A stretch of 64,000 nt of DNA, from assembly GCF_012272835.1 (NCBI RefSeq), contig NZ_JAAWWK010000001.1:310001-374000 (forward strand). The letters run 5' to 3'. The translations under genes and the position numbers were made by a program. Positions 4,546-49,521 of this stretch are shown here, one piece after another (position 1 is the stretch's first letter; every line of letters begins with the position of its first letter). This DNA is from Spongiibacter thalassae. Lineage in GTDB: Bacteria > Pseudomonadota > Gammaproteobacteria > Pseudomonadales > Spongiibacteraceae. The notes under the pieces are model-generated. The model searched no databases and was not told where the DNA came from. It saw only the letters and a program-made list of their open reading frames with translations.

Positions 4546-5364
4546 ATGACAAGTACTGATATACCACTCACAAGCAGCAACGATGTGTACGTTGATGATG
4601 AAAAAATTACTATCAAAGGTAAAAAGCTAAGTAACACCCAGTTGCTGCATTTAGCGTGTATTCTGACGGGTATTCCCTTCCTTATAATGCTATTCGGCGG
4701 CTCATGGGCCATCGCCGATTTTATTCCGGCGCATTCTCCGAGTGCGAGCGCAGAAGTCATTGCGGCGTTTTACCGTGAGAATGTCTTGGCGATTCGCTTT
4801 GGCCTCGCGCTGGCATTCCTCGGATTTAGTTTTATTCTGCCAATCGGCTCTGTTATTGCCGCTCAAACCAGAAGAATCGAGGGCGTTTCTCCGGTACTGA
4901 GTAATATTCAGATCGCTTCTTTCTCGTCGGGTTCTCTTGTTTTTATTACCACATGGATCTGCTGGCTAACCGCGGCATTCCGCCCGGAGAGAGACGACCA
5001 GCTTATATATCTGTTAAATGATCTGGGTTGGGTATTCTTCGTTACTACATTTATTGCGTACACTGTCTGGAACTTCGCCATTGGTATTGCAATTCTGTTC
5101 GATAACCGTGAAGAACCAATTTATCCCCGCTGGGTGGGATATTTCAATGTGTTCGTTGGCGTATCCTTCGTTCCTGATATCTGCACGCCATTTTTCCACA
5201 CCGGACCGTTTGCCTGGGATGGAATATTTACCTTCTATATACCCTATTTCACATTCTTTATCTGGGTCCTGGTGATGATGTGGTCCACGTCAAAGGCAAT
5301 CATCAACGACAAGAATTTGCAGTCAGACAATAAAGACTGTCTGGTGGATGCGAGAGCGCGCTAA
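4546..5364 (+). CDS. Multi-pass membrane protein of unknown function, first gene of module A
   Basis: This 272-residue protein is a polytopic inner-membrane protein with about six hydrophobic helices, starting near residues 32-52, 82-102, 120-140, 160-182, 196-212 and 222-245. Polar tails lie at both ends. I do not recognise a named family. Proline and aromatic residues are frequent in the loop before the last helix (PDICTPFFHTGPFAWDG). GAGGAG lies eight bases before the ATG and supports this start. The gene is 45 bases upstream of a COX3/NorE-like gene in the same direction, so an operon with that subunit and the COX4-like gene is likely. It may be a membrane partner of those subunits. Confidence 0.75.
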   Translation: MTSTDIPLTSSNDVYVDDEKITIKGKKLSNTQLLHLACILTGIPFLIMLFGGSWAIADFIPAHSPSASAEVIAAFYRENVLAIRFGLALAFLGFSFILPIGSVIAAQTRRIEGVSPVLSNIQIASFSSGSLVFITTWICWLTAAFRPERDDQLIYLLNDLGWVFFVTTFIAYTVWNFAIGIAILFDNREEPIYPRWVGYFNVFVGVSFVPDICTPFFHTGPFAWDGIFTFYIPYFTFFIWVLVMMWSTSKAIINDKNLQSDNKDCLVDARAR

Positions 5365-5409
5365 GCATTGCTTCTCGGGAAAAATTATAATTGGATTTGA
5401 GGAATTGAT

Positions 5410-6027
5410 ATGAGCATTGGAGAAGGTACCCTCTCAAGCAGCTACCTTAAGCTGGGTAAGTTGAAAGAAAAGCCGACGAGTATTCCGGGCGAAGGTGGTA
5501 TATGGGTGTTTCTGTTTGGTGATCTTTCTATATTTACCGCGCTATTTGGTTCATGGATGTACTATCGAGCCTATAACGTTGAAGAGTTCCTAACTTCGCA
5601 GGCAACTCTGAGCGAAACATTGGCAACGCTGAATACTATATTGTTGTTGATGAGTTCCTGGTGCGTGGTGATGGCTATCGAATCCGCGCGATCGCAAAAG
5701 TTGGTTCAAGCGCGGCAGCTATTGATCGGCGCAGCTTCATGTGGGATAGGGTTTTCAGTGGTGAAAATATACGAGTATTGGACGAAGTTCGATGCCGGAA
5801 TAACCATTGTAACCAATGATTTCTACATGCTTTATTTTATGGCGACCGGGATGCATTTCATCCATGTCATTATAGGCCTTTGTGTGCTCGGCTTGATGTG
5901 GCTCCAGCTGACCAAAAGTAGAGTGGGGGAGCGTGAAATTAAATTCCTGGAAACAGGTGCCACGTACTGGCATATGGTTGACCTGCTTTGGATTATCCTT
6001 TTTCCACTTATTTACTTAATGGGGTGA
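5410..6027 (+). CDS. Cytochrome c oxidase subunit III / NorE-like membrane protein
   Basis: This 205-residue protein has five transmembrane helices, the length and fold of short COX3 relatives such as NorE rather than the seven-helix oxidase subunit. COX3 hallmarks include GIWVFLFGDLSIF near 29-41, TGMHFIHVIIGL near 146-157, and the C-terminal YWHMVDLLWIILFPLIYL. COX3 and NorE carry no redox cofactor; they stabilise or help assemble a catalytic subunit. No COX1, NorB or NorC is encoded in the window, so its partner is unknown. The gene sits between a membrane protein gene and a COX4-like gene four bases downstream. A close paralogue is at 39386-40024. Confidence 0.87.
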   Translation: MSIGEGTLSSSYLKLGKLKEKPTSIPGEGGIWVFLFGDLSIFTALFGSWMYYRAYNVEEFLTSQATLSETLATLNTILLLMSSWCVVMAIESARSQKLVQARQLLIGAASCGIGFSVVKIYEYWTKFDAGITIVTNDFYMLYFMATGMHFIHVIIGLCVLGLMWLQLTKSRVGEREIKFLETGATYWHMVDLLWIILFPLIYLMG

Positions 6028-6031
6028 GTAA

Positions 6032-6337
6032 ATGAAAGACCTGATAATGAACAGACAGAGTGCGACGCTATTCGTACTTGGCTCGGCAACCGCACTGTCC
6101 TGGGTTGTAAGTGAGATGTCGAGAGTTGATGTTGGCGCGATCTCATTTGGCGCAGTGTGTATGTTAATGGTAGTGACTTTTATTAAAGTGAAAATCGTGA
6201 TGTCAAACTTTATGGAAGTGTCACACGGGCCATTTGTTCTTAAGACTGCTTGTAATATTTGGTTATTTGTGTCGCTGTCTACAATTTTAGTCATGTATTG
6301 GCTTACGTCAACCGGGAATATGATATTCCTGAGCTAG
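6032..6337 (+). CDS. Prokaryotic cytochrome c oxidase subunit IV / NorF-like small membrane protein
   Basis: This 101-residue protein has three hydrophobic helices, typical of the COX4_pro/NorF family. The characteristic middle segment FIKVKIVMSNFMEVSHGP corresponds to the 'K(A/V)...FMEv.h.P' signature seen also in the paralogue at 39060-39344. These subunits accompany COX3/NorE and have an accessory role. The start is four bases after the stop of the COX3-like gene and uses GGGGTGAG within that overlap as ribosome binding site; an internal ATG at 6047 is possible. It is probably the last gene of a three-gene unit, since a strong inverted repeat follows at 6361. Confidence 0.8.
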   Translation: MKDLIMNRQSATLFVLGSATALSWVVSEMSRVDVGAISFGAVCMLMVVTFIKVKIVMSNFMEVSHGPFVLKTACNIWLFVSLSTILVMYWLTSTGNMIFLS

Positions 6338-6360
6338 GTGCAGGGATAAGGGCGATACGA

Positions 6361-6419
6361 ACGCGCTTTTCGAATTCTCTACATCCTTATGTTGTGATTT
6401 AGTTTGACGAAAAGCGCGT
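6361..6419. repeat. Perfect 12-base inverted repeat downstream of the COX4-like gene
   Basis: ACGCGCTTTTCG (6361-6372) and its exact reverse complement (6408-6419) are separated by 35 bases. The structure lies 23 bases after the stop of the COX4-like gene. No T-run follows on the plus strand, so it is not a clear intrinsic terminator. It could stabilise the message end or bind a regulator. The rest of 6420-6730 is AT-rich with no gene. Confidence 0.6.
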
Positions 6420-6733
6420 GCACACCCCATATGTAAGGGTAGAAAAATACGACCCGATCAGGAATAAAGGCGGTAAGAATCTATCGCTCTGTATGTAAGC
6501 TTTAAAGGGTCGGAAAAGTATATTTCAAGAATGTTTTGTAAATAATATTTTAGCTAAATTAATAGAATATAAGTCTAAAAATTATGTTTGCCTGCGGTCG
6601 AATTGCCGATCTATAAATTTACTTTTGTTTGGGTTGGGCGTTAAGAGGCATATGGGTGATTGCGATTGGCTTATTAATTGAATGAATTATTTCTTTGTCG
6701 TTTTGTCGCGGCTAATAGGTAGGAGTGTTTGGT

Positions 6734-9037
6734 ATGAAGAGTATAAAAATAGGTATGTTCGCATGCGTGGCGGCGATGGTTCCGTACGCCGCGTACGCTC
6801 AGAATGTCAATGGTGAGGCGAGCAGCGCGGAGCCTTTGAAAAGAAAATCGACCAGCAGGGTGCTTGAAGAGGTAATGGTAACCGCTCAGAAGCGAGAGGA
6901 ATCCATGGCGAGTGTTCCGATTTCGGTTTCGGCTCACTCCGGTGAAAAGCTGGAAGCGCTTGGGGTAGACGACATTCAGGGGTTGCCCTCCATCACTCCG
7001 GGTTTGCAGATTGAAAATCTCGTCGGTTACACCATTATATTCCTGCGGGGCGTCGGCTCGGACATATTTCTTCCCTCCGCTGATAGTAGCGTGGCGACCT
7101 ACATAGATGGAATATACACCCCATTCGCGCATGGTCTGGCTCAGGATCTGGGTAAGATCAGCAGAATTGAGGTGTTGAAAGGCCCACAGGGTACGTTGTT
7201 TGGTCGAAACACTACCGGTGGTGCGATCAACACTATCACTGAAAAGCCCAGTGACGAGTTTTATTTTTCCTTGGGAATTGATAAAGGTAATTACGATCGC
7301 GAAAACTATAAAGCCTATATTGCCGGCCCTCTGACAGAGAACATTAAAGCGGGACTGTCGGTATTTAGAAATGGCGAGGAAAGTTACTATAACAGGCCCG
7401 CGGATGCACAAACGCAGGAGCCGTTTGGCGACGATGTCTCCAGAGGTTTCCAGGTACGCGTTACCTGGGATATATCAGACACAATGGATATCACCGCGAC
7501 GACACTGCAGTCTCGGTTCGATGGTGTTACGCAACAGTTGCTAACCTCGAAAGAGACGCGTCCGACTTTTCAGGCGATTCTGCAGAATAGGGACGCCTAT
7601 GAGGCAGACCCGGACGACCCGGTTTTTGGTAAAAACGTGAATGAATTGTCATATCTGGAATACAACTGGGCGTCGGAATTGCCGTTTGATACCAAGCTGC
7701 TTGCCAGTTACCAAAGTATAAGAACCGACTTCAGTGTTGATTTCGATGGAGACAATGCGCCTTTAGCGAGATTTGCCCCCACTGATCAGGGCGCGCGGTA
7801 TGTCACCGCAGAGGCGCAACTTATCTCTAATGAGAACTCGTGGAACTCAGACGAGCTAAAGTGGATCGCAGGCTATTTCTTCTATCGGCAACGAGAAGCC
7901 GGATTCCGGAATATCGAACTTGCCGTAGCGGGTAGCGCTACCGATATAGCAGCCCCGGTATTAGTGCCGCTGGCTACTATTGCAGGTGCGGCTGGAGTGC
8001 CGCTACCCGCAAGTGGCACGGTGTATTTTAATGGGCTGGTCGACACAGATGCTCATGCCGTATTTTCGGAAGTCACTCAAAACCTGTTCCAGGATAGAGT
8101 CGGCATTACTCTGGGTGCGCGTTATCAAACCGAGTTGAAGAAAATCACTCAGTCTGAACTTGGCTTTGTTGGCGGAGATGGCACGAATTCAGAACCCCTT
8201 ATTGAATATGAGCCAGACGAAAGAGACAGCGACGATGAAAGCTTCAAGTTAACTATAGATTACCGCCTTGATAATGGCTTGATATTTTTTACAGGATCGA
8301 AAGGCGTGAAATCGGGCGCGTTTCAGGTCGCTAATATCACCACTGAGCCTGAGTTTGTTGAGCCCGAAAAGGCCAACTCTCTTGAGGTAGGCGCCAAGCT
8401 AGAGCTATTTGATAGTGCGTTACGCATGAATTTCGGTGTGTTCAAGAACGAAGTTGATAACGTTCAGGTGGCAATAATTGCATTGCAAAATGGTGGTGCA
8501 ATAAGTTTTGAAAACGCTGGTGCGGCAGAAATAAAAGGCGCCGATGGGGATTTCCTTTGGGTGCCATTTATGGAGGCAGTTCCAGGTTTTGTGGTAAGTG
8601 GCTCTTTCTCCTATCTCGACGGGGTATATACCGATTATCAGAATGCCTCAGGGTTTAATGAAGTAGGCACTTTTGCGAGTCGTACTGAGGATTACACAGG
8701 AAACAGAACAGTAAGAACTCCGGAGTGGAGTTATAACTTTGGCATGAATTATTCATTCTTTGCTTTGGGGGGCGAGTTTGAACTGGGTGCGGGTTATTAC
8801 TTTAACGATGGATTCTTTTTTGATGCACAAAATGCTGCCGTTCAACCTCAGTACTCTTTAGTGAATGCGCAGATCTCTTACTACCATGAAGACACCAAAA
8901 TAAGAGTTACCGGATACGGTTCTAACCTTGAGGGGTCAGAATACTTCTCAAGTCGCTTCCCCGTTGATTTCAATATCAGTGGCCGCTACGCGCCGCCAAA
9001 AATGTACGGTGTGCGTTTGAAGTGGGAGGCGTTCTAG
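6734..9037 (+). CDS. TonB-dependent outer membrane receptor (paralogue 2 of 5)
   Basis: This 767-residue receptor has a clear signal peptide ending AAYAQ near residue 23. A plug begins with the LEEVMVTAQKREE box, contains LKGPQGTLFGRNTTGGAIN, and leads into a beta barrel that ends in phenylalanine. AGGAG at 6721-6725 lies eight bases before the ATG at 6734, favouring it over the GTG at 6725. It is the outer-membrane importer embedded in module A, between the COX3/COX4-like genes and two DUF1214 genes, so it likely imports the module's substrate. It shares the motif RGVGSDIFLPSADSSVATY with the other four receptors. Confidence 0.93.
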   Translation: MKSIKIGMFACVAAMVPYAAYAQNVNGEASSAEPLKRKSTSRVLEEVMVTAQKREESMASVPISVSAHSGEKLEALGVDDIQGLPSITPGLQIENLVGYTIIFLRGVGSDIFLPSADSSVATYIDGIYTPFAHGLAQDLGKISRIEVLKGPQGTLFGRNTTGGAINTITEKPSDEFYFSLGIDKGNYDRENYKAYIAGPLTENIKAGLSVFRNGEESYYNRPADAQTQEPFGDDVSRGFQVRVTWDISDTMDITATTLQSRFDGVTQQLLTSKETRPTFQAILQNRDAYEADPDDPVFGKNVNELSYLEYNWASELPFDTKLLASYQSIRTDFSVDFDGDNAPLARFAPTDQGARYVTAEAQLISNENSWNSDELKWIAGYFFYRQREAGFRNIELAVAGSATDIAAPVLVPLATIAGAAGVPLPASGTVYFNGLVDTDAHAVFSEVTQNLFQDRVGITLGARYQTELKKITQSELGFVGGDGTNSEPLIEYEPDERDSDDESFKLTIDYRLDNGLIFFTGSKGVKSGAFQVANITTEPEFVEPEKANSLEVGAKLELFDSALRMNFGVFKNEVDNVQVAIIALQNGGAISFENAGAAEIKGADGDFLWVPFMEAVPGFVVSGSFSYLDGVYTDYQNASGFNEVGTFASRTEDYTGNRTVRTPEWSYNFGMNYSFFALGGEFELGAGYYFNDGFFFDAQNAAVQPQYSLVNAQISYYHEDTKIRVTGYGSNLEGSEYFSSRFPVDFNISGRYAPPKMYGVRLKWEAF

Positions 9038-9071
9038 GTGACAACTCTTTAACTAAAGCTGTCGGACTATC

Positions 9072-9106
9072 GCGAGGCTGTGTACTAAAAGCTTGTATAG
9101 CCTCGC
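9072..9106. terminator. Hairpin downstream of TonB receptor, possible terminator
   Basis: GCGAGGCTGT (9072-9081) pairs with ATAGCCTCGC (9097-9106) over ten positions including one G-T pair, with a 15-base loop. It starts 35 bases after the stop of the receptor gene. There is no T-run after it, so factor-independent termination is uncertain. Confidence 0.4.
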
Positions 9107-9209
9107 AAAGGCAGTATAGCGGTATCAAGTTGATCGGTTCCAATGCGTGATTTGCTCAAGGGTTGTCGTTCATGCGTAGGCTATCTTCCCTTGTAGGCAT
9201 TATGAAAGG

Positions 9210-9247
9210 CGCTATTTCATCGCTCCTGGATCAGACGGGAAATAGCG
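9210..9247. repeat. Nine-base perfect inverted repeat
   Basis: CGCTATTTC (9210-9218) and GAAATAGCG (9239-9247) are separated by 20 bases in the 394-base gap between the TonB receptor gene and the DUF1214 genes. Its function is unknown. It is followed by a short AT-rich stretch but no clear T-run. Confidence 0.45.
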
Positions 9248-9350
9248 TTGAAATTAAATAGACACAGTATTTTTTATGTGTTTAAAATTGAACTCATGGC
9301 GTAAGCGTAGTTTTCAGCTTTCATGCATGTCGCATACAGTGTTGTTTGAA

Positions 9351-9381
9351 GGCCGATCGCTACACGGTGATCAGATCGGCC
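9351..9381. promoter_or_regulatory. Inverted repeat GGCCGATC...GATCGGCC before the DUF1214 pair
   Basis: Two perfect eight-base arms (9351-9358, 9374-9381) are separated by 15 bases and end 50 bases before the start at 9432. The position fits either an operator or a leader hairpin for the DUF1214-sulfotransferase unit. Confidence 0.4.
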
Positions 9382-9431
9382 CATGTAAGAAGAATATGCG
9401 GCCGGGCGTTGACTAAATGGCAGGAGTTGGT

Positions 9432-10781
9432 ATGTCGGTAAACAAAAATAAGACGGAATATGGTGTTGGGGCTAGCGGTTCAAACTTTTCAATTCCGGAA
9501 GACGAGACAAATAAGGTTAGGAAGGCATTGATGGACGCGCCTCCCGCTTCATTGACTGCCAGGCCGGATCAGGCGAGCCCAGCGCTAAGAAGTGCATGGC
9601 AAAGCTATCATTCCGCTGTCGATGAGATGCGCTTCTTACTCGAGAAGTCCTCGATGTTTAAAAACCCGCGATATCGAGCCAAGGCGTTTCACGTCATGAT
9701 GGAGATACAGGCTATTGCCTATAGTATGACCATCGCTCCGCGTACCGCTACGCCACGAATTCACACCAACTCAGGTTGGCACGACGACATTTTTTCGTTG
9801 GGACTAGTGGGTGCGGATTGGCACTACGGCCTTCTCTATCTGGACGGCGCCTATGCTTACAAGCTGTCCGGCAGAAAAGGCGAAAATGAATTGCTTCTCC
9901 TCCAGGTTTGCAGCGATTCCCTCGGCATGCCGGACCATAGAACTATTGGTATGCATGACTTTAACGATATTGTCGATTTCGACGAAAATGGCAATTATGA
10001 GGTCATTATCGGCGGTCCGCCAAGAGAGCGAAATTGGGTTGCGTTAGACAATAATTCAAACTGGAACTTGTTATACATTCGAACCCAAATCAAGAAATTT
10101 GGTAATGAAGACATTGGCGAGTATCGAATCGAACATTTAGCGCCGGTAGAAGCTGACCTTTACGAGCAGGAAGAGTTTGATGAGGCGGTGATGGCAGAGC
10201 GAATTCATCGCGCAGAAATGCTAATGCGCATTTACATCAAGGAATTCACTATCGGCATTTGGGACTTTGCCAACGCCGGAAGCCAGGGCAAGCCAAATGT
10301 TATGTCGCCGCAGCCAGGGCTGACATTTGTGGGTGGTAGTTCATTCAGTGTCTACGCGCAAGGCGCGTTCTCCATAGATGAGGACGAGGCGCTTATCATT
10401 GAGCTTAAAGAGGCACCTACCAGTCCTTACTGGGGGATCATGTTGGGTGATACCTGGTCGCGTGCGCTCCCCTTCAGTCGCTACCAGACTTCCTTGAATA
10501 ACGCGCAAGCTGTACAGGATTCTGACGGGGGTTATCGATTTGTACTCTCAATCAAGGATCCCGGCGTCGCCAATTGGCTGGATCCTACCAAGCACAATCA
10601 TGGCGAGATGTTTTTCAGAAATTACTTCACTACGGAAACTGTCGTTCCTGATGTAATGAAAGTAAAGCTCGACAAGCTACTCGATTACCTGCCCGGTGAT
10701 ACGGCACTGGTGAGTCCCGAAGAACGCAAGGCGGCAATTCGGTACAGGCGAGAGGGATTCGTGAGAATGTACGGCGAGTAG
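9432..10781 (+). CDS. DUF1214-type protein (first of a tandem pair)
   Basis: This 449-residue soluble protein has no signal peptide or membrane segment. Its C-terminal third has the DUF1214 pattern: SPYWGIMLGDTWSRALPF, then YQTSLNNAQAVQDSDGGYRF, then SIKDPGVANWLDPT. This pattern is shared with the next gene. DUF1214 proteins lack an agreed biochemical function and are frequent in mycobacteria and sphingomonads that degrade hydrophobic compounds. AGGAG at 9422-9426 sits five bases before ATG 9432, making it a better start than ATG 9417. The paralogue begins 56 bases after the stop, so the two probably form one operon and may act as a pair. The reaction is unknown. Confidence 0.7.
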   Translation: MSVNKNKTEYGVGASGSNFSIPEDETNKVRKALMDAPPASLTARPDQASPALRSAWQSYHSAVDEMRFLLEKSSMFKNPRYRAKAFHVMMEIQAIAYSMTIAPRTATPRIHTNSGWHDDIFSLGLVGADWHYGLLYLDGAYAYKLSGRKGENELLLLQVCSDSLGMPDHRTIGMHDFNDIVDFDENGNYEVIIGGPPRERNWVALDNNSNWNLLYIRTQIKKFGNEDIGEYRIEHLAPVEADLYEQEEFDEAVMAERIHRAEMLMRIYIKEFTIGIWDFANAGSQGKPNVMSPQPGLTFVGGSSFSVYAQGAFSIDEDEALIIELKEAPTSPYWGIMLGDTWSRALPFSRYQTSLNNAQAVQDSDGGYRFVLSIKDPGVANWLDPTKHNHGEMFFRNYFTTETVVPDVMKVKLDKLLDYLPGDTALVSPEERKAAIRYRREGFVRMYGE

Positions 10782-10837
10782 AGCGGTTGGCCAATCTCAC
10801 AAATTTGTTCAGTTATAAGATCAAGAGGTTCTAAAAT

Positions 10838-12184
10838 ATGAAAAATATAACGTCCTTTGACGAAGTTGGATCAAAATGTCTGGGTGCTACAGATGTCCTG
10901 GACCTGAATGATCCCCATTTTCTGTCCCCGAATAATCACACCGCGACGCTAGACCAAAAGGAAATAGAAGAGCTCGCTCTCGAGATGATGAGTCATCCAC
11001 GTGTGCTCGCCGCGAAGCAGGCCGCAGCGCGTCGTTGGAGAATGATGTGCACTGATGAGGTTCCCAGCGAGGCTTGGGTTAGTTTTGAGAAGAAAATGGA
11101 AGAATGGACATTCCACTATTTGCTGTTGGCGATAAATGGCGACTCTAATTACCCGAAAGTTCTGGATCACGGTTATGGGCCACCGCACAACTGGTTCGGA
11201 ATGGATGTGCCGGGTTGCCGTGGGCCTGGTACCGCTGAAAATCCGGATAACAACTATAGCTGGATTCCGGTTGATGGGCGCTCTCATTTTGAATTGCACG
11301 GTAAACTCAGCGATAAGCCTGTAGGTGAGTGCCCATTTCATATTGTCGGCAATCTCTCAATGGGGATGAACCTTGCATGCCTCGACTGGCAGGACGTCGA
11401 AATTGATGAAGATGGCAACTTTGTTATAACCATTAGTCCTGAGCCTGCCAACGGTCGTAAAAACCATATACAAACAATGATTAACGCGCGGTATATATTC
11501 GTTCGGGCGAGCCGAGTGAATTGGGATCAAAAGCCCCATGCGTTGCGAATCAAACGGGTTACACCCCCGACTGCGCCACCTCAATCCATTGACCAGATTG
11601 CCGAACTCGCGAATCGCTACATTATCGACGATATATCCGAGAATTTTTGGTTCCACCGGATGGTGGCCTGCGTTGATATAAATACCTGTACCGAGCCCGA
11701 AACCACGACTTTTTTTGGCGGTATGGCTATTCAGAAGTTGGCGCGGGGGCATTTAAAGCTTAATGACAACGAAGCATTTGTACTCACGCTAAAGCCAGGC
11801 GGCTCAAAATATTTTGTCACTGTGCTTTACGATTATTGGTTGATGAGCGGTAACTACTGGAGCCGGCAGAGTACCCTCAACAATGATCAAAGTATTGCCA
11901 ATGAAGACGGCTCCTACACCTATGTGTTTTCGCTGAAAGACCCGGGTGTGCACAACTGGATAGACATGTTGGATACCTACGAACCACTGTTTATGATTCG
12001 TCTGAACCAGTTGCCGCAAACCAAAGATCATGATTTTGGTGAGACTGAAATACATACCCAGGTTGTTAAGCTTTGCGATCTAAAGGACGTTCTGCCGAAA
12101 GAAACAAAGTGGGTATCCCCTGAAGAGCGCGAGCAGGCCCTAAGCAAGCGCCTCGAGCAGTTTAATAATCGATACGTGGTGTAA
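10838..12184 (+). CDS. DUF1214-type protein (second of a tandem pair)
   Basis: This 448-residue paralogue of the preceding protein shows the same C-terminal layout: NYWSRQSTLNNDQSIANEDG, YTYVFSLKDPGVHNWIDM, and an end of the form 'WVSPEEREQALSKRLEQF', like 'LVSPEERKAAIRYRREGF' in its neighbour. The N-terminal half is more divergent, with its own PHNWFGMDVPGCRGPGTAENP loop, suggesting the two copies have specialised. No transmembrane or export signal is visible. It lies 31 bases upstream of the sulfotransferase gene on the same strand, so co-transcription is likely. The catalytic role is unknown. Confidence 0.68.
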   Translation: MKNITSFDEVGSKCLGATDVLDLNDPHFLSPNNHTATLDQKEIEELALEMMSHPRVLAAKQAAARRWRMMCTDEVPSEAWVSFEKKMEEWTFHYLLLAINGDSNYPKVLDHGYGPPHNWFGMDVPGCRGPGTAENPDNNYSWIPVDGRSHFELHGKLSDKPVGECPFHIVGNLSMGMNLACLDWQDVEIDEDGNFVITISPEPANGRKNHIQTMINARYIFVRASRVNWDQKPHALRIKRVTPPTAPPQSIDQIAELANRYIIDDISENFWFHRMVACVDINTCTEPETTTFFGGMAIQKLARGHLKLNDNEAFVLTLKPGGSKYFVTVLYDYWLMSGNYWSRQSTLNNDQSIANEDGSYTYVFSLKDPGVHNWIDMLDTYEPLFMIRLNQLPQTKDHDFGETEIHTQVVKLCDLKDVLPKETKWVSPEEREQALSKRLEQFNNRYVV

Positions 12185-12215
12185 CGTCTAAATTAGATCG
12201 ATAGAGGTATTACAA

Positions 12216-35476: not shown

Positions 35477-36850
35477 ATGGAAACGGTAGCAATAAATCCA
35501 ATGGATGCCGCGTGGCTGTATATCGAGAAGCGCGAAGCCCCGGCGCATTTCGGGCCGCTTATTTTTATGAGCTGTCCAGAGGGGGAGCCGGATTTTGTCG
35601 CGCGTCTGGTCAGCGAGTGGCGCAAATCCCAGCAGTTTGCCCCGCCGTTTAACTACCGTCTGGCCAAGGGTCTGGTGCCCAAATGGGAGATTGTGCCCAA
35701 TGACGAGCTGGATATGGAATACCACCTCATGCACGTGGGCTTGCCCGCGCCGGGGGGAGAGCAGCAGTTGGGTGTGCTGGTGTCGCGCCTGCACTCACAC
35801 CGTCTTGATCGCCGTCGGCCACTGTGGCAGGTCTACATCATTGAAGGTCTGGAGGACAATCGCTTTGCGCTCTATCTCAAGCTGCATCACTCCCAACTCG
35901 ATGGTATGGGCGCGGCCAGGCTAATGGCGCGTTGTTTCAGTAGTGACCCCGGGCAACGGGGTTTGGTGCCCCCCTGGAGCGTGGGCCTCAGCGCGCGTAA
36001 ATCATCACCTAAAGCCGACGCGAAGGCCCTTTCGTTGGCCAACGGCGTAAAGCAGGGCAAGCGGTTGATGAATATAGCGGGAGCCTTGGGCACACTTGGC
36101 AAGCACTCCTATTTTACCCGCGACCACGCCTTGTTCGCCCCGTATCAAGGGCCCAAGTCGGTGCTCAACTCCCGTATTCGCGGTCATCGTCGCTATGCCA
36201 CCCAGCGTTTTGAGCTGGACGAGTTAAAAGCGGTCGCCGGCGCGGCAGAAGCAAAGGTGAACGATGTATTTCTCGCGATTACCGGCGCGGCACTGCGGCG
36301 CTATCTCAGTGAGATTTCCGCCTTGCCCCGCCACTCGCTTGTGGGCCAAGTGCCGGTAAGTATTCGTCCCGCCGGTGATGGCAGTGTGGGGAATGCCCTG
36401 AGTTTTGTTTATGCCACCCTTGGCACAGACCTTGAAGACCCCATCGAGCGTCTTCACGCGGTGCGGGCCTCTACGGAGTCTGCCAAGGCCTTGCAGAGCC
36501 AGCTTTCTGCCGATGCCATAGAGGCCTACACCGCCATTGTGCTGGCGCCCTATATCACCGAGACGATATTAAATCTGGGTGGCCATTTGCGGCCCGCGGC
36601 CAATCTGGTGATTTCCAATGTGCAGGGGCCTCGCGAGCGTTTGTATTTTAATGGTGCGCGGGTGGAGCATATTTATGGGCCATCGGTGCTGTTCCATGGG
36701 CAGGCATTGAATATCACCATGGCCAGCTATGCCGATGAGGTGAATATCGGCTATACCGCGTGCCGTGACACCCTGCCGTCAATGCAGAAAATCGCTGTTT
36801 ATACCCGCGAAGCCTTCGACGAATTGGCAGCGTTGGTCGGCGCGAATTAG
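35477..36850 (+). CDS. Wax ester synthase / acyl-CoA:diacylglycerol acyltransferase (WS/DGAT)
   Basis: This 457-residue acyltransferase has the condensing motif HHSQLDG (residues 137-143; family HHxxxDG), whose second histidine is the catalytic base, and the C-terminal conserved segment NLVISNVQGPRERLYFNGAR. These membrane-associated enzymes esterify acyl-CoA with fatty alcohols or diacylglycerol to make storage wax esters or triacylglycerols. The length agrees with the family. GAGGTG lies just upstream of ATG. It is divergent from the TetR gene, with two candidate operators between, and its end overlaps the convergent 7-TM protein gene by four bases. Storage of surplus acyl-CoA is the likely role. 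Confidence 0.92.
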   Translation: METVAINPMDAAWLYIEKREAPAHFGPLIFMSCPEGEPDFVARLVSEWRKSQQFAPPFNYRLAKGLVPKWEIVPNDELDMEYHLMHVGLPAPGGEQQLGVLVSRLHSHRLDRRRPLWQVYIIEGLEDNRFALYLKLHHSQLDGMGAARLMARCFSSDPGQRGLVPPWSVGLSARKSSPKADAKALSLANGVKQGKRLMNIAGALGTLGKHSYFTRDHALFAPYQGPKSVLNSRIRGHRRYATQRFELDELKAVAGAAEAKVNDVFLAITGAALRRYLSEISALPRHSLVGQVPVSIRPAGDGSVGNALSFVYATLGTDLEDPIERLHAVRASTESAKALQSQLSADAIEAYTAIVLAPYITETILNLGGHLRPAANLVISNVQGPRERLYFNGARVEHIYGPSVLFHGQALNITMASYADEVNIGYTACRDTLPSMQKIAVYTREAFDELAALVGAN

Positions 36851-37671
36851 CGCCGTGGCAGGTCGATAATTGCCATCACTACCCAGACTACCAGAAGGGA
36901 TAACAGCACACTGAGTAAACTGGAACCCTGAATTATCCACTGGGGGAAATTCAGGGTGTCGGTGCCCAGGGCGTTGTACATGGGCCAACCGGCAGCGGCG
37001 TGGCCCATAAATGCGCCGCTGGGCATTATCAGTACCAAAGCGATTTGTTTTAAACCCTTGAGTTTGGGTATCAGTGCATAGGTGAGCAGGAAGGGCACAA
37101 TCACCGCAGTGGTGTTGACGAAGAACCACCAGGACGGCATATAGCCCAGCTTGAAGGGCTGGTAGCCGTAGTACACCCACACCCCGAAATGCAGGGGTAT
37201 TTGTTCGACCAGGGCTGCGGTGAACACAACTGCTGCGTAGCTTTTCCAGACAAAGTTTTGCTTAAGTGTGCGCGCTCTTATTTTGTCAAAACACAGCAGC
37301 GGCAGGGCTGCGAAATACCAAATGTAGCCGACCAAAACCGCGAGGGGGACGGGGTGCCCATTGGTAGTTAGTACATTGTACTGGGCAATCTGCGGGTGCA
37401 CCGCATTGCCCAATAAATCTACCACTGGTTCCAGGTAGAGGGTCAGCACGGAGCCGAGCAATAGTAACAGGGGCACCGCGCTGCGATGTCGCTTGCTCAG
37501 GTAAAGGGCGTAAATAACAAAAATCACCGCGCCGATGCCATAGGCCACCGTAGTGATAAGCTGCGGCAGTGCCGGCATGACCAGATCTGCCGGTGCCTGG
37601 GTGTGGGAAAGGGTATGAGAAAGAGTGTGGGAGAGGGGGTAAGAAAGAGTGTCAGTGCGTGGCTCGTTCAT
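36847..37671 (-). CDS. Seven-helix membrane protein with N-terminal SHTL repeats (module B)
   Basis: This 274-residue protein has a polar N-terminus with tandem 'LSHT' units (residues about 9-24), then about seven hydrophobic helices. It shares with 23684-24493 and 40087-40917 the signatures YLEPVVDLLGNAVHPQIAQ, WKSY, VEQIPLHFGVWVYYGYQ, FFVN and PKLKGLKQIALV. Its start overlaps the stop of the upstream FadL gene by four bases (ATGA), so translation is probably coupled. It is the last gene of module B and converges with the WS/DGAT gene. Conserved membrane-embedded Glu, Pro and Tyr residues suggest a shared ligand or activity; none is known. Confidence 0.7.
   Translation of the reverse strand: MNEPRTDTLSYPLSHTLSHTLSHTQAPADLVMPALPQLITTVAYGIGAVIFVIYALYLSKRHRSAVPLLLLLGSVLTLYLEPVVDLLGNAVHPQIAQYNVLTTNGHPVPLAVLVGYIWYFAALPLLCFDKIRARTLKQNFVWKSYAAVVFTAALVEQIPLHFGVWVYYGYQPFKLGYMPSWWFFVNTTAVIVPFLLTYALIPKLKGLKQIALVLIMPSGAFMGHAAAGWPMYNALGTDTLNFPQWIIQGSSLLSVLLSLLVVWVVMAIIDLPRR
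37601..37655. repeat. Imperfect 12-base tandem repeats inside a coding region
   Basis: Four to five units alternate between forms such as GTGTGGGAAAGG and GTATGAGAAAGA (37601, 37613, 37625, 37637, and a partial unit at 37649). On the minus strand they encode (L)SHT / (L)SYP units at the N-terminus of the 7-TM protein. The unit length of 12 keeps the frame, so copy number could vary without breaking the gene. Confidence 0.75.
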
Positions 37672-38963
37672 AGCGGGCGGCTCCCCTGGTTTATCTGGCT
37701 AAAGGTGAAGTGCAGTGCCAATGACTCGTTAATTTCCGACGAAGGCCCAAAGGGTGTTTCGGGGTTGTGATAGCGGGTTTCGGTACGAGGCTGATAGGCC
37801 AGAGCGGTATTTATCAGCCAACGTCTATTCAGTTTACTGGTATACCCTACTGACAAATCGTGACGGGGGGTGAGAGCAAAAGTAGGGGACAGGCTGGCCT
37901 TGTCGAGAATCAGGCTGTGGTAGGAGTATCCTGCGCGCAGCGTGCGGTTATTGCCCAGGTGTTTTTCCACCCCGATGCTGTAAACAATCTGGCTGTGCAT
38001 TTTCGTTGAACTGCTGAATTCCAGCTCGTCGGCCGGTGCAGTCCTGTCGGGGTCACTTGCGGATAGTGTCAACCGTCGTGTTGAGCCTGCCCAGTCGAAC
38101 CAGTTTGCTTCAGCGGAAAGCCCCCAATCCGCGCGGGGCTTCCAGAATACGCCAATGCCGAATTCCCTCGGGGTTTCCAGTCCCTCCATGGAAACGTCCT
38201 GATAGGTCACTCGACCGGCACCTATCGCCTCGTAGTTGACGGTCATTGAGCCGCCATCAAGATCAATCTTCGATTCTGTGGTGTAATTTGCACCCACGAT
38301 AACTTGTTCATTAACCTGATACTGCATGCCCAGCTTTACATCGCCGCCCCAGCCACTCAAGTCCCGCACTTTTACGCCGAAAAAGGTTTGCTCGGCAGTG
38401 GCGACAGATGTGTCTTCAAACAGGCTCTGTTCTGCACCCGCATAGGTGGCCGCAACGACGACTCCAAGCCTTAGCTTGTCACTGTAGTTCCAGGCGAGTC
38501 CACCGGAAAACCGGAATAGTGAAAATAATGAGGTGGCGTCGTCAACGGTGCCGTATACGTTATCGAGATTGTTATAAACATAACCCAGACCTCCGGCAAC
38601 GTTCACCCCGGCGCCCCATACAAATTGGCTTTCGGAATTGAACCGGCGGGCATGGCCTGCGCCGACGACAGACCCCAGCTCGTTGCTAACGCGGGTACGA
38701 CCGCTGTAGCCGTCTTTGTGGCCAGTGCGCGCAATAGAGAAGGCGGTTGCGCTGTAGTCAGTGCGGCTGTTAGCAATATTGGCGAGTCCGGCGGGGTTGG
38801 CGATCAGTGCGCCGGTGTCACTGACAGCAGCGATTTCCGCGCCACCCATAGCAGTGGCTTCAGCGCCATAGGCGGTAAGGTAAATGCCATTGGCGGCCTG
38901 TGCAGACAAAACCGAGCACAGACCGCCCGATAGAACGGCGTGGTAAGCGAAGTTTTTCAGCAT
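37668..38963 (-). CDS. FadL/OmpP1/TodX-type outer membrane porin (second of three)
   Basis: This 431-residue protein has a signal peptide (about residues 1-23, ending AQAAN) and the FadL-type mature start with YGAEATAMGGAEIA and NPAGLANIANSRTDY. Many alternating amphipathic strands follow. The fold suggests passage of hydrophobic molecules. It belongs to the module B operon, 96 bases after the COX4-like gene and overlapping the final 7-TM gene by four bases. The equivalent module A gene is 13709-14983, with a similar GLGGADIA turn and similar strand motifs such as SSFGSFKLQSALAW and SLFRFSGGLAWN, so the two are clear paralogues. Confidence 0.86.
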   Translation of the reverse strand: MLKNFAYHAVLSGGLCSVLSAQAANGIYLTAYGAEATAMGGAEIAAVSDTGALIANPAGLANIANSRTDYSATAFSIARTGHKDGYSGRTRVSNELGSVVGAGHARRFNSESQFVWGAGVNVAGGLGYVYNNLDNVYGTVDDATSLFSLFRFSGGLAWNYSDKLRLGVVVAATYAGAEQSLFEDTSVATAEQTFFGVKVRDLSGWGGDVKLGMQYQVNEQVIVGANYTTESKIDLDGGSMTVNYEAIGAGRVTYQDVSMEGLETPREFGIGVFWKPRADWGLSAEANWFDWAGSTRRLTLSASDPDRTAPADELEFSSSTKMHSQIVYSIGVEKHLGNNRTLRAGYSYHSLILDKASLSPTFALTPRHDLSVGYTSKLNRRWLINTALAYQPRTETRYHNPETPFGPSSEINESLALHFTFSQINQGSRPL

Positions 38964-39059
38964 AATTATTCCGTGGTGTTGGCGCGATCTGGCTGCGCGG
39001 CGGCGAAGATGTGTTGGTTATTCGTAGCGTCGTTTGGTACGGTGGCGCGGTAGTTACTG

Positions 39060-39344
39060 TCAGAGGGACAGCTGTCCGCTATTGGCGAGCAGTAAACCTA
39101 CGCAGCTGAATAACACCCAGCTTTCACAGGACACGCGTAATGTGCTTGGTGCGTGCCCCACTTCCATAAAGTGGATGATGACCAGCCGCGCCTTGAAAAA
39201 AGCCAGAATCAGAATAGCCGCAGATTCAATAAAATGATCGGCAAACAGCATTCCGTGGTGACTGCCTACTGCCCACGAAAAAAAGGTAATGGCGGTGAGC
39301 AGTAACCAGATTGCAGTTTCCTTGGAGAGTATCAGTTCACGCAT
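39060..39344 (-). CDS. COX4_pro/NorF-like small membrane protein (module B copy)
   Basis: This 94-residue protein has three hydrophobic helices and the middle signature FFKARLVIIHFMEVGHAPSTLR, matching the 'FIKVKIVMSNFMEVSHGP' segment of the module A copy. It starts 41 bases after the stop of the COX3-like gene, as expected for a NorE-NorF-like pair. Known family members are accessory subunits of haem-copper oxidases or nitric oxide reductases. No catalytic subunit of either is encoded here. The ribosome binding site is weak, so coupling to the upstream gene is likely. Confidence 0.8.
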   Translation of the reverse strand: MRELILSKETAIWLLLTAITFFSWAVGSHHGMLFADHFIESAAILILAFFKARLVIIHFMEVGHAPSTLRVSCESWVLFSCVGLLLANSGQLSL

Positions 39345-39385
39345 GGCGGGTCCGTTATTTTTTTGAGTGCTTCAACAACACCGTG

Positions 39386-40024
39386 TCAGGGAATAAGGTA
39401 TATCAGTGGAAAAATAATAATCCACAGCAGGTCAACCATATGCCAGTAAATGCCACCGCATTCCATGTTGGCATAGGCGGTGTCATCTACCTTGTCGGTT
39501 CGGTAAAGACTGAAAGCAAAATACAACAGCATCGGCACGCCAAGCAGTACGTGAAAATAATGCATGCCGGTAATCAGGTAGTAAAATACCCAGAAGTTAT
39601 TGCTGAGATAGTCAATTTCCAGGGCGGCTTTGTCGCTGTATTCCATGCCCTTGAGAACAAGAAAGCCAGTTCCTAAAGCAGCGGCAACCACTAACATGTG
39701 AGCGGCTTGGCGACAAAGTTGACGCTTTACCGCCTTCAGTGCCAAAACCACCAGCCAGGAGCTGCACAATAAAAGCAGTGTATTCACCGAGCCGATATGA
39801 ATATCGAGTAGGGCCTGTGACTCGCGGAATAGCTCCAATGCCTCGCTGCGATAGTAGGCGAACATACCAAAGAAAAGCGAAAAACAGGCCATATCACCTA
39901 ACAGGAACAACCACACCATTTCATCGCCGGGCATGTGCGGGGCAACACCATTGGCATCGTTGGCGGGTGACTTGCTCACGTTGGCTGATCCAGGTTGTTG
40001 TGGTGAAGGTTCAAAAGCAGTCAT
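39386..40024 (-). CDS. COX3/NorE-like membrane protein (module B copy)
   Basis: This 212-residue protein has a polar N-terminus with proline and asparagine, then five helices. COX3 hallmarks are MVWLFLLGDMACFSLFFGMFAYY, ITGMHYFHVLLGVPML and the final GGIYWHMVDLLWIIIFPLIYL, nearly the same as the module A copy. An in-frame extension upstream to 40225 overlaps the preceding gene and lacks family features, so ATG 40024 is chosen. It lies between a 7-TM gene and the COX4-like gene. As in module A there is no partner oxidase, so this subunit may serve a different membrane enzyme, for example the 7-TM protein beside it. Confidence 0.87.
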   Translation of the reverse strand: MTAFEPSPQQPGSANVSKSPANDANGVAPHMPGDEMVWLFLLGDMACFSLFFGMFAYYRSEALELFRESQALLDIHIGSVNTLLLLCSSWLVVLALKAVKRQLCRQAAHMLVVAAALGTGFLVLKGMEYSDKAALEIDYLSNNFWVFYYLITGMHYFHVLLGVPMLLYFAFSLYRTDKVDDTAYANMECGGIYWHMVDLLWIIIFPLIYLIP

Positions 40025-40086
40025 AGCAATCGATGAATTTATCAGGGCACCGGACAGCCCGAAGACTGCCGGTGCATTGGAGCGGG

Positions 40087-40917
40087 TTATGCGGGTTGTG
40101 TGCGCAGTGCGGCAGCGGGGTTTTCCGCAGACACTGACTTGTCGGCGACCAGTGCCGCGACAAAGCGAACAACGAGCAGACACAGAGCGAGTGACAGCAA
40201 GGTCAGCAGGCGAGTGGCGATCCACGGCATGTCGTGGTTAAGCGACATGAAGTAGGGCCATGCGGTAATGCCGTAGGATGCGCCCATGGCGACCACTGAA
40301 ACCAGCGCCAAAGCAATACGGTTGCGACCTTTCAGGTAGGGCTCTACCAGATACAGCAGGAAACCTACCATCAGCATTGAGGTGCCGTTCAGCCAGCCCC
40401 AGGCCAGCGGGAAGCCAAAGATTTTGAACGAGGCATCGCCGTAGTAGATATAGGCCTGCGTGGCTGTGCCAGGCATTTCCATAATGACGTCGGTCATCGC
40501 GATAAGGAACCAGGTGATAAACACGCCTTTCACGGTCAGGCCCTGTTTCATTCGGGTATAGGCCCAGTAGCCGGTCATCGAAATAAAGAAGACATAGCAG
40601 GGTGGTATCAGCGCCGGAATATTCAGGTCATAGCCGATAAACGCAGGCCCGGGCAGGTTGGTGGGGTACCACAGGTGTCCCAGGTGGTCGAGCATCGGCT
40701 CGATCAGCGAGCAAATCAAACCGCCGAGAATCATCCACAGTGGAATATCGTTGCCTTTCTTCATATAGCAATAGATGGCCCAGGGTATTACGGCGATACC
40801 GAAGCCCCCGGCCCATACAGTGAATAAATTACCGACCAGCTCATTGGCCATATAGTCTGCGGGAACCGGCAGCCGCTCGGCGACTACCGGTGTCATCCAC
40901 TTCTCGATTAGTGACAT
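40087..40917 (-). CDS. Seven-helix membrane protein (module B, third paralogue)
   Basis: This 276-residue protein has about seven transmembrane helices. Family signatures shared with 23684-24493 and 36847-37671 are SLIEPMLDHLGHLWYPTNLPG, a membrane segment with MEMPGTATQAYIYYGDASFK, and EPYLKGRNRIALALV. AGAGGAAAAC before ATG supports the start. The gene lies between the FAD oxidoreductase and COX3-like genes, where module A has the AveC-like gene beside its own oxidoreductase. This location, plus similar acidic and YxYYG-type motifs, suggests it may be the functional counterpart of the AveC-like protein; sequence alone does not prove homology. Confidence 0.7.
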   Translation of the reverse strand: MSLIEKWMTPVVAERLPVPADYMANELVGNLFTVWAGGFGIAVIPWAIYCYMKKGNDIPLWMILGGLICSLIEPMLDHLGHLWYPTNLPGPAFIGYDLNIPALIPPCYVFFISMTGYWAYTRMKQGLTVKGVFITWFLIAMTDVIMEMPGTATQAYIYYGDASFKIFGFPLAWGWLNGTSMLMVGFLLYLVEPYLKGRNRIALALVSVVAMGASYGITAWPYFMSLNHDMPWIATRLLTLLSLALCLLVVRFVAALVADKSVSAENPAAALRTQPA

Positions 40918-40961
40918 GGTGTTTTCCTCTCTTGTGATTATCTCTACAAATGAAGCGTGGT

Positions 40962-42575
40962 TTACTTCATATTCTTAATGGCGGTCAGGGCCGAGTTCCG
41001 TCCCGGCATACCGCAGATGCCTGCACTGGGGTGGGTTCCGGAACCACTGAGGAACAAACCGGGTACAGGGGTTTTATAGCCGCCAAGGGCAAAGGCCGGG
41101 CGGCCAGGTCCAAACCGGGTAACGTAGGGGTCAACGTGGTACACGCTGCCGTCTATGGCATGGAAGCGTTTTTCGATATCGGGCGGCGCCAGAGGACGAC
41201 GGGCGATTTCAAGTTCCTCGATGCCGTCGTAGTACTTGGCTGAATCCTTGGTAATCATGTCGCTGATCTGATCTCGAGCTTTCTCCCAGCCGATATTTGG
41301 ATTGAAGGGCACGAGACCCGACCAGAACCAGTAAGTGTCGTGGCCTTCGGGGGCCATTTTGGGGTCGAAGGCGGTGGTTACCTGGCCGAGGCCAGCGATG
41401 ATTTCCGGAATTTCGCCACGAATACAGTCCTGATACGCCTTTAGACCCTGTTCGTAGGTGGCCCATTGCAGCGTGGGCAGGCGCAGATCGGCATCCCAGC
41501 CCCGTTTGCGGCGCCACTCAGAGTGTCGGCGGGGTTCAATCTTGCCCTTGAGTGCGATATTCAATTTGAAATCGGCAATACCGCGGCTGGCGGTGGGGAT
41601 GTGCTTGGCGGTTACGGCGGTTTTGTGGTCAAGGATGCCATCTGGTAGCAGGTGGTTGAGCACCATTTTCGGGCTGAAGGCGGTCACGACCCCTTTCCTG
41701 GCGAAAATCTCTTCGCCGCTAGTGAGGCGAACTCCGGCAGCGCGACCGTCCTTGATAATAATTTCGTCGATTTTGGCGCTGGTACGAACAGAACCGCCGT
41801 GGTCTTCAAGGCAGCGGATCAGGGCTTTGGGGAAGGCGCCGGTGCCACCTTCAAACATGGTAATGCCCGTGCTCTGCAAAGCAGAAAGATAAATCATGCA
41901 GAACGAGCTGAGGTCAGAGCGGAATTCCATAAAGGGCAGGCCGGTCAGCAGGCAGGCGCGCACCATATCGGTTTCAAACAGCTCTTCAAGCACGGCGGCG
42001 TGGGAATTGGTCATCAGCTTGACAATGGCCGGAATATGCCGGGCGTGGCGAATGGCCCCGCCCATAGTGCGCAGCACCGCCGCAGGACTGGGGCGGTGAG
42101 CGTTAGTGTTCATCAGCGGCAGGCCGATCTTCATCGCCCGATCAATTGTATTGGAGAGGTCGAGCCACGCGGCGGCGTCCTTTTTGGAGAAATACTTGAT
42201 CTCTTCCGCGGTTTTGCGGGGGTCGTTCCACATACCAATGGACTCGTCGCCGTCCTGACTCAGTTGCACGTGGCAGGGGTCGATGCGGCGCTGGCGCAAA
42301 CCGTACTTGGTCTCCAGTTCCAGCTCCTGGGCGATGGGCGAAAGGCGGAACAGTGACGCGTGAATAGACGCTTCGTTGATGATGTGCTCGGGAGCTTCCG
42401 GTGCCATGGGATTGGTGGCGGTCATGCCGCCGGCGGTTTCATGGGCCTCAACAACCAGGGTCTTGAGGCCGGCCTTGGCCAGGTAACAGGATGCCACCAG
42501 GCCGTTATGGCCAGCGCCGGCGACGATGACGTCGATGTCTTTATAGTCGCCCTGGGGGCTTGCATGCTCTTGCAT
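40962..42575 (-). CDS. CrtI/phytoene-desaturase-like FAD oxidoreductase (module B copy)
   Basis: This 537-residue flavoprotein has the motif DVIVAGAGHNGLVASCYLAKAG, the acidic VVEAHETAGGMTATN, and the C-terminal FAD motif GLFLSGSGTHPSAGICGMPG. It is a clear paralogue of the protein at 15061-16644, with shared blocks such as 'ALxxxGxxMFxGGxGAxPxAL' and 'GxGQxKxxxAL'-like central strands. It should oxidise a hydrophobic or conjugated substrate; no carotenoid-biosynthesis genes support the phytoene name. AGAGGACC precedes ATG. It is the first gene of module B, with a 44-base gap to the 7-TM gene. Two palindromes lie in the divergent region shared with the TonB receptor gene. Confidence 0.88.
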   Translation of the reverse strand: MQEHASPQGDYKDIDVIVAGAGHNGLVASCYLAKAGLKTLVVEAHETAGGMTATNPMAPEAPEHIINEASIHASLFRLSPIAQELELETKYGLRQRRIDPCHVQLSQDGDESIGMWNDPRKTAEEIKYFSKKDAAAWLDLSNTIDRAMKIGLPLMNTNAHRPSPAAVLRTMGGAIRHARHIPAIVKLMTNSHAAVLEELFETDMVRACLLTGLPFMEFRSDLSSFCMIYLSALQSTGITMFEGGTGAFPKALIRCLEDHGGSVRTSAKIDEIIIKDGRAAGVRLTSGEEIFARKGVVTAFSPKMVLNHLLPDGILDHKTAVTAKHIPTASRGIADFKLNIALKGKIEPRRHSEWRRKRGWDADLRLPTLQWATYEQGLKAYQDCIRGEIPEIIAGLGQVTTAFDPKMAPEGHDTYWFWSGLVPFNPNIGWEKARDQISDMITKDSAKYYDGIEELEIARRPLAPPDIEKRFHAIDGSVYHVDPYVTRFGPGRPAFALGGYKTPVPGLFLSGSGTHPSAGICGMPGRNSALTAIKNMK

Positions 42576-49519: not shown

Positions 49520-49521
49520 TT

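Follow-up and report, generated by a model that had tools for sequence, protein, structure and literature searches.

A conserved TM6–COX3–COX4 gene triad and a NorQ/NorD-like gene pair linked to AveC-like genes in Spongiibacter thalassae and other bacteria

COX3 and COX4 are familiar as subunits of respiratory oxidases. In a 64,000-nucleotide stretch of the genome of Spongiibacter thalassae (contig NZ_JAAWWK010000001.1, positions 310,001 to 374,000; hereafter, the window), two gene clusters, module A (4546–20445) and module B (36847–42575), each encode a NorE-like COX3 and a NorF-like COX4. In module A, these two genes are preceded by a gene for a 272-aa protein with six helices in its structural model (4546–5364, + strand), here called TM6, and the three genes form a triad that recurs in distant bacteria. 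The COX3/COX4 pair usually has TM6, and not an AveC-like or other seven-transmembrane (7-TM) protein, as its closest partner. Because the TM6–COX3 linkage is conserved (44 of 78 loci) and no COX1 or NorB gene was found in the stretches examined around these loci, it is supported as a genetic association that the COX3/COX4 subunits here serve something other than a haem-copper oxidase. A preliminary description of this DNA, which was made from the sequence alone and suggested a partner other than an oxidase or NO reductase, is upheld at this level.

Conserved linkage of TM6 with COX3- and COX4-like genes

The COX3 gene of module A (5410–6027, + strand; 205 aa) matches PF00510 with an E-value of 4.6e-16, and the following COX4 gene (6032–6337, + strand; 101 aa) matches PF03626 (COX4_pro) weakly, at 8.7e-4 and under the Pfam cut-off. 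TM6 had no match in a Pfam/NCBIfam scan at E <= 1 and belongs to a family without a name. Its AlphaFold model (pLDDT 91.5) was read as a six-helix bundle, and neither this model nor that of the AveC-like protein had a clear match among the Foldseek top 1000 PDB chains. The idea that TM6 is a metal protein was dropped because the residues conserved at >=75% include no His or Cys, and a relationship with the 7-TM proteins was rejected (hhalign probability 0.6).

A TM6 alignment was used to scan the contigs of named bacterial and archaeal genomes. The scan gave 223 relatives, of which the best 80, representing 78 loci, were kept, and stretches of 3.9 to 20.8 kb were examined around these loci (a few end at contig edges). 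COX3, COX4, and TM6 were called with hidden Markov models (HMMs) grown from the window proteins, and adjacency was defined as a distance of <=400 bases. TM6 and COX3 were adjacent in 44 of the 78 loci, COX3 was further off in one, and no COX3 was found in 33. The two genes lie on the same strand in 43 of the 44 adjacent loci, and COX4 was found within 400 bases in 43. By record label, the 44 loci are from Pseudomonadota (24), Actinomycetota (14), Binatota (3), Myxococcota (1), Verrucomicrobiota (1), and Campylobacterota (1), i.e. five to six phyla, although many of the records are metagenome bins and their phylum labels may be wrong. The Campylobacterota record groups with Binatota in the COX3 tree described below and so is likely to be a Binatota bin with a wrong label. 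Conserved co-occurrence in distant lineages, which the preliminary description had proposed as a check, was thus observed for TM6 and COX3, and module B is kept in three congeners.

TM6 is rare: among 299 genomes sampled from the phylum, only the window's own genome yielded a match, but TM6 is present in 14 of the 21 genomes of the window's family. A NorE-like COX3 (E < 1e-49) was found in 13 of these 14 TM6-bearing genomes versus none of the seven TM6-free genomes (hypergeometric probability of 7e-5, with kinship ignored). Within the family, a NorE-like COX3 lies <=1.2 kb from 29 of the 46 TM6 matches, a count that leaves out a fragment with a stop (G306:C30, E 9.5e-4). The NorE-like COX3 genes of the family number 42, comprising 41 with E < 1e-49 (one with an internal stop) and a fragment that adjoins TM6 (G317:C1:2998635, E 6.7e-7); a broken fragment in G306:C107 was excluded. 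Among them, 28 adjoin TM6, four adjoin a 7-TM gene, three are located 7.5–13 kb from TM6, and seven are near neither. The earlier proposal that the partner is an AveC-like or 7-TM protein is upheld in part only, TM6 being the most frequent partner.

The triad was also found on plasmids. TM6 matched 19 plasmid records, of which four were examined. On the plasmids of Mycobacterium branderi and Rhodococcus oxybenzonivorans, the triad genes are annotated as ‘hypothetical protein’, ‘cytochrome c oxidase subunit 3’, and ‘subunit IV’, and the Rhodococcus triad is located beside an MCE operon. TM6 and COX3 are annotated on plasmid pLA3 of Novosphingobium pentaromativorans, with COX4 recovered by HMM, and a plasmid of Sphingobium herbicidovorans carries a COX3/COX4 pair ~2.6 kb from TM6. 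TM6 is strongly expanded in some bacteria, with 355 matches in 16 genomes and up to 49 per genome.

COX1/NorB-family genes and the phylogeny of COX3

A COX1 profile was built from 12 COX1-family proteins, three of which were taken as NorB or quinol nitric oxide reductase (NOR) types from their length and neighbours. With this profile, no COX1/NorB-family open reading frame (ORF) was found at E <= 10 in the window, the stretches around the 78 TM6 loci, six plasmid loci, or the loci of the own genome; the sole match was the control locus L016, recovered as intended. These results agree with the preliminary description, in which the window was said to encode no COX1 or NorB, and homologous loci with COX1 or NorB at the same place, which it had named as contrary evidence, were not found in the 78 stretches. 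None of 20 window ORFs matched COX2 in the Pfam scan at E <= 1, although no dedicated COX2 search was made.

In a maximum-likelihood tree of 79 COX3 proteins, five oxidase-linked COX3 were split from 74 NorE-like proteins with support of 98/93. The COX3 of module B formed one group (100/85) next to four COX3 from orphan pairs, in a tree with long branches whose details are unsure. The ‘triad’ group of the tree (63 rows) includes five COX3 that do not adjoin TM6 (L103, L130, L156, L157, and L158). Orphan NorE/NorF-like pairs, located without TM6 or 7-TM genes, were identified at seven loci (L228, L229, L230, L231, L232, L234, and L235).

Linkage of AveC-like genes with a NorQ/NorD-like pair

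The last three genes of module A, all on the + strand, encode an AveC-like 7-TM protein (16743–17930; PF17198, 1.4e-43), a NorD/CoxE-like VWA protein of a conserved family (17927–19597; PF00092, 1.5e-6; PF05762, 2.3e-4), and a NorQ/CbbQ/NirQ-like MoxR AAA+ ATPase (19636–20445; PF07728, 2.6e-34; PF08406, 5e-21). The VWA gene overlaps the end of the AveC-like gene by 4 bases, and the Walker A motif (GPTGCGKT) of the ATPase and the MIDAS motif (DASGS) of the VWA protein are both intact. The VWA and AAA+ genes had been missed in the preliminary gene inventory, which was partly confirmed. Judged by sequence similarity, module A is a set that includes homologues of all four accessory genes of nor operons (norE, norF, norQ, and norD) and in which no norC, norB, or COX1 was found.

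The VWA alignment search covered 42 of the 78 loci in 39 genomes and gave matches in 20 genomes. The 36 near-full-length matches (E < 1e-100, 16 genomes) were used and 13 weaker rows were dropped; together with those in G317, G314, and the window, they make up 39 VWA loci. An AAA+ partner was found within 5 kb in all 39 loci and an AveC gene in 36 of the 39 (by ORF extent). By Pfam coordinates, an AveC gene lies no more than 5 kb from 32 of the 36 VWA genes. An even spread of the 134 AveC genes would give 0.7, and 12.4 of 36 would be expected if the AveC genes and the VWA gene of each genome were all contained in one 300-kb island. In the reverse direction, a VWA gene lies within 5 kb of 43 of the 134 AveC genes, so most AveC genes have no VWA gene nearby. 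As for other neighbours of the 39 VWA loci, TM6 was found within 5 kb in 14 and a CrtO-like gene in 11, and COX3 was present in the examined stretch in nine, four of them within 5 kb. TM6 and AveC genes were likewise found close together: in 16 genomes with 355 TM6 matches, 54 of the 150 TM6 genes listed had an AveC gene at a distance of <=5 kb, versus 2.6 expected if evenly placed, when compared with 132 of the 134 AveC rows (the two weakest excluded).

P450-like and SDR-like proteins, the largest other neighbour clusters, were rejected as clients of the NorQD-like pair. They were found within 6 kb in 15 and 16 of the 39 loci, respectively, versus 36 of 39 within 5 kb for AveC, although the two clusters were named by eye, linked by BLAST, and possibly undercounted, and AveC was found by HMM.

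The AveC–VWA–AAA+ set was found in three genomes of the genus, where a triad is located ~10 kb (own genome), ~5 kb (G317), and ~23 kb (G314) away. In a Mycobacterium bin (L192; G353:C123), AveC, TM6, VWA, and AAA+ genes form one run, with TM6 between AveC and VWA. Pseudomaricurvus alkylphenolicus carries TM6, COX3/COX4, and AveC genes at loci L103 and L113. In L233, rebuilt HMMs for the AAA+ and VWA proteins also matched neighbours of a COX1-family gene (E 9e-121 and 7e-67), which fits a norBQD locus.

The window pair shares with CbbQ/CbbO, NorQ/NorD, and RavA/ViaA the Walker A motif, the MIDAS DxSxS motif, and gene adjacency, and differs in that its predicted client is an AveC-like membrane protein. 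NorQD inserts the non-haem iron FeB into NorB of cNOR (PMC9976466; PMC13036017). By analogy, the AAA+/VWA pair may act on the AveC-like protein, with remodelling of this protein without a metal, in the way that CbbQ/CbbO activate RuBisCO, as likely as loading of a metal. The literature search found no paper naming an AveC-like membrane protein as a client of a MoxR–VWA pair.

AveC-like and 7-TM proteins as one superfamily

Comparison of the 7-TM alignment (A6) with the AveC alignment by hhalign gave a probability of 95.3 and an E-value of 2.1e-8 over 149 columns, with a conserved Glu and the stretch Tyr-x-Tyr-[Pro/Tyr]-Gly in register. Because of this profile–profile match, the AveC-like and 7-TM proteins, which had been described as two distinct candidates, are regarded here as members of one superfamily. 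The AlphaFold model of AveC (pLDDT 87.5) contains seven long helices, and the conserved residues of the family are D126, N144, Y174, E220, D272, E279, and the cysteines C341 and C349.

Gene organization of modules A and B

Module A is a run of 12 genes on the + strand. Between COX4 and the AveC-like gene, it encodes a TonB-dependent receptor (6725–9037; PF00593 and PF07715), two paralogous DUF1214 proteins with 27% identity (9417–10781, PF06742, 1.5e-6; and 10838–12184, PF06742, 2.6e-5), a sulfotransferase (12216–13493; PF13469, 4.1e-31), a FadL-type outer-membrane porin (13697–14983; PF03349, 1.6e-26), and a CrtO/CrtI-like FAD oxidoreductase with a GAGHNG motif (15028–16644; NCBIfam CrtO, 3.1e-68).

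Module B lies on the – strand in the order CrtO-like, 7-TM, COX3, COX4, FadL, and 7-TM (42575–36847). It consists of genes for a CrtO-like FAD oxidoreductase (40962–42575; PF01593, 5.7e-9), a 7-TM AveC-superfamily protein adjoining COX3 (40087–40917; alignment A6), a NorE-like COX3 (39386–40024; 212 aa), a NorF-like COX4 (39060–39344; PF03626, 1.5e-12), a FadL-type porin (37668–38963; PF03349, 1.4e-24), and a second 7-TM AveC-superfamily protein (36847–37671; alignment A6), which is kept in G304, G311, and G317. The start of this COX3 is probably the ATG at 40024, which follows the stop codon of the gene at 40087–40917; the longer GTG ORF (39386–40225), with which the PF00510 match (1.1e-12) was obtained, overlaps that gene. 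A TonB-dependent receptor gene (42968–45304, + strand; PF00593, 2.3e-31) flanks the module, and a further 7-TM AveC-superfamily protein is encoded at 23684–24493 (– strand; 36% identity to that at 36847–37671). Intergenic gaps are shorter than 100 bases at eight of the 11 junctions in module A and five of the six in module B.

As the preliminary description had stated, each module has a COX3/COX4-like pair, a CrtI-like flavoprotein, a FadL porin, a TonB receptor, and one or more polytopic proteins; Pfam/NCBIfam matches confirm the COX3, COX4, FadL, flavoprotein, AveC-like, and TonB members. The COX3 (43% identity), CrtO-like (35%), FadL (31%), and COX4 (30%, E 8e-12) proteins of the two modules are paralogous, and TM6 has no counterpart in module B. 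Five TonB receptor paralogues are encoded within the first 46 kb of the window; such receptors are common here and are weak evidence of linkage. The order of module B is kept gene for gene in three congeners (G304, G311, and G317), with a WS/DGAT-like ORF (identified by eye) beyond the module, and an AveC-like gene lies 5–6 kb from the CrtO-like gene of the module in G304 and G317.

The description of two paralogous loci was also too narrow in number. The own genome (4.4 Mb in 13 contigs) encodes five NorE-like COX3, two in the window and three outside it, and a TM6 gene is located within 400 bases of four of the five. The genes around the three copies outside the window encode a Rieske oxygenase alpha subunit, acyl-CoA dehydrogenases, an enoyl-CoA hydratase, AraC regulators, and a POR-domain oxidoreductase; because these neighbours differ, the common factor is the triad and not FadL or TonB. 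The single COX1 match of this genome lies outside the window contig, on contig C8, where it has a COX3 of its own.

Some further genes were noted. The region from 47037 to 63989 in the window contains, as named by eye from translations, beta-oxidation-type genes, a gene for an AlkB-like membrane hydroxylase (54883–55992), and a meta-cleavage-like set (58331–63300). At L159 (G000:C1:29377-30967), two tandem 7-TM AveC-superfamily genes have a TonB receptor gene alongside, and a flanking ORF resembles, by eye, a carotenoid-oxygenase-type protein. Small, apparently secreted ORFs occur beside TonB receptor genes in congeners (L152:8509-9009, L161:13982-14464, and L149:1703-2479), and IPxxGG-like stretches are present in two of them. 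When the window was scanned for this motif, no such ORF was recovered.

Comparison with known systems

The COX3 proteins of the window belong by profile to the same family as subunit III of haem-copper oxidases, and the window family keeps the GxHxxH and WHxVD stretches, which canonical COX3 share. They differ from oxidase subunits III/IV in that the partner is TM6 or a 7-TM protein with no COX1 adjoining, and in forming a group apart from the five oxidase-linked COX3. The nor operon of Paracoccus denitrificans (cNOR) has the gene order norCBQDEF, in which the enzyme proteins are encoded by norC and norB only (PMC9976466). Module A resembles this operon in that it carries NorE/NorF-like and NorQ/NorD-like pairs in one run, with NorQ AAA+ and NorD VWA homologues supported by the PF08406 and VWA matches and the NorF homologue by a weak one. 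It differs in having no NorC/NorB and, instead, TM6, AveC-like, CrtO-like, and FadL genes; a catalytic NorB with the accessory genes is a feature of the operon not encountered in the window by the COX1 profile.

The AveC-like protein scores well above the curated PF17198 cut-off (149.4 versus 26.6 bits). Its gene differs from aveC of avermectin biosynthesis in being paired with AAA+/VWA genes, with no polyketide synthase among the window ORFs examined. For the flavoprotein encoded at 15028, CrtO beta-carotene ketolase is the best NCBIfam match over nearly the full length, but its score of 230.7 bits against an equivalog cut-off of 1000 indicates a relative and not CrtO itself.

Proposed system and alternative explanations

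The chances seem to us about evenly balanced that the two modules belong to a not yet described inner-membrane system that handles hydrophobic compounds resembling lipids or terpenoids, combining a TM6–COX3–COX4 complex with NorQD-like chaperones for an AveC-type protein. TM6, NorE-like COX3, and NorF-like COX4 are often inherited as a three-gene unit without a haem-copper catalytic subunit, and their products may assemble into a single complex in the membrane, in which TM6 would occupy the position of COX1 or NorB; in module B, a 7-TM protein takes the place held by TM6 elsewhere. The AveC-superfamily 7-TM proteins, which gene linkage assigns to the same pathways, may be acid/base or metal-dependent enzymes acting on a hydrophobic substrate. 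The strong linkage described above suggests that the NorQ-like AAA+ and NorD-like VWA proteins are dedicated to the AveC-like protein, which they could remodel or load with a cofactor, as NorQD does with FeB for NorB. From the functions of their families, the CrtO-like flavoenzyme would oxidize or desaturate the same molecule and the FadL and TonB porins would import it. Because of FadL, the CrtO-like enzyme, and the neighbouring acyl-CoA and MCE genes, its substrates are probably fatty or terpene-like. Linkage is strong and conserved, and no paper describing this gene combination was found in the open-access literature, judged by titles and abstract openings.

A more far-reaching reading, in which the AveC-superfamily 7-TM proteins would constitute a new class of membrane metalloenzymes with a cofactor installed by a dedicated NorQ/NorD-type machine and with TM6–COX3–COX4 as the COX3-containing partner complex on lipid-soluble substrates, so that respiratory helpers are reused outside respiration, is rather doubtful. 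Several observations weigh against it or against the proposed system as a whole. No histidine is found among the AveC positions kept at >=80%, which is unusual for an iron site, no set of metal ligands stands out in AveC, and at three acidic positions where most members have Glu, Asp, and Glu, the window protein carries Q165, G216, and Q252. For Streptomyces AveC, the described role is that of a spirocyclase/dehydratase, and neither ‘metal’ nor ‘cofactor’ occurs as a word in the passages searched of one AveC paper. In addition, 34 of the 78 TM6 loci have no adjacent COX3 (a few at contig edges) and one mycobacterial genome contains 49 TM6 matches; therefore, TM6 works without COX3 too. The three COX3 genes of the family at 7.5–13 kb from TM6 also count against the system, as do the seven with neither TM6 nor a 7-TM gene nearby, three of which lie ~3 kb from COX1, and the COX1 operon found in G314 at a distance of 5.9 kb from VWA. 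The chance figures given for even placement are also affected, since catabolic islands raise the expectation.

It is possible, though distinctly unlikely, that the NorE/NorF-like pairs are accessories that serve the cell's ordinary haem-copper oxidase from separate loci, with TM6 as a further assembly or tuning factor and the catabolic setting reflecting regulation and not a joint enzyme. COX1 is present somewhere in all 43 triad-bearing genomes searched, and three orphan NorF–NorE pairs without TM6 (L228, L234, and L235; in G304, G311, and G315) lie ~3 kb from a COX1 gene. NorE and NorF are outside the cNOR complex and had no effect on its heterologous expression (PMC9976466). However, the own genome has one COX1 match against five NorE-like COX3, the copies of which are beside varied catabolic genes that an oxidase factor would not need, and the split of the 74 NorE-like from the oxidase-linked COX3 in the tree also speaks against this explanation. 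That the module is a decayed denitrification operon, having lost norC and norB and kept the accessory genes, would account for the norE, norF, norQ, and norD homologues of module A and for the presence of the same AAA+ and VWA families in the NorB-type locus L233. Nevertheless, AveC–VWA–AAA+ and TM6–COX3–COX4 recur without NorB in many lineages, and the window genes are full-length ORFs of families that are duplicated, not decayed; this explanation was rejected as extremely improbable and close to refuted.

A somewhat unlikely alternative is that there is no joint system and that TM6–COX3–COX4, AveC–VWA–AAA+, and CrtO–FadL are separate units that accumulate in the same lipid- or steroid-catabolic islands, as the 12.4 of 36 expected under the island model illustrates for chance neighbourhood. 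Many triads stand alone: among the 44 adjacent loci, AveC was found in five and CrtO in 11 of the stretches examined, and the Mycobacterium branderi and Rhodococcus plasmid triads are without AveC in theirs. By contrast, module B holds COX3/COX4, 7-TM, CrtO, and FadL genes in one run conserved in four species, the triad lies near AveC–VWA–AAA+ in each of the three genomes of the genus noted above, and TM6 lies between VWA and AveC in L192.

Implications

The occurrence of the COX3–COX4 unit with another partner in several phyla provides a place to study the role of COX3 without an oxidase alongside. The AveC–VWA–AAA+ linkage would hand a new client to a little-studied AAA+ family and would assign PF17198, which takes its name from a spirocyclase of Streptomyces, a different role, open to testing, in many environmental bacteria. 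The analysis also brings to attention TM6, a family for which no Pfam or NCBIfam entry was found and which reaches dozens of copies in a single genome.

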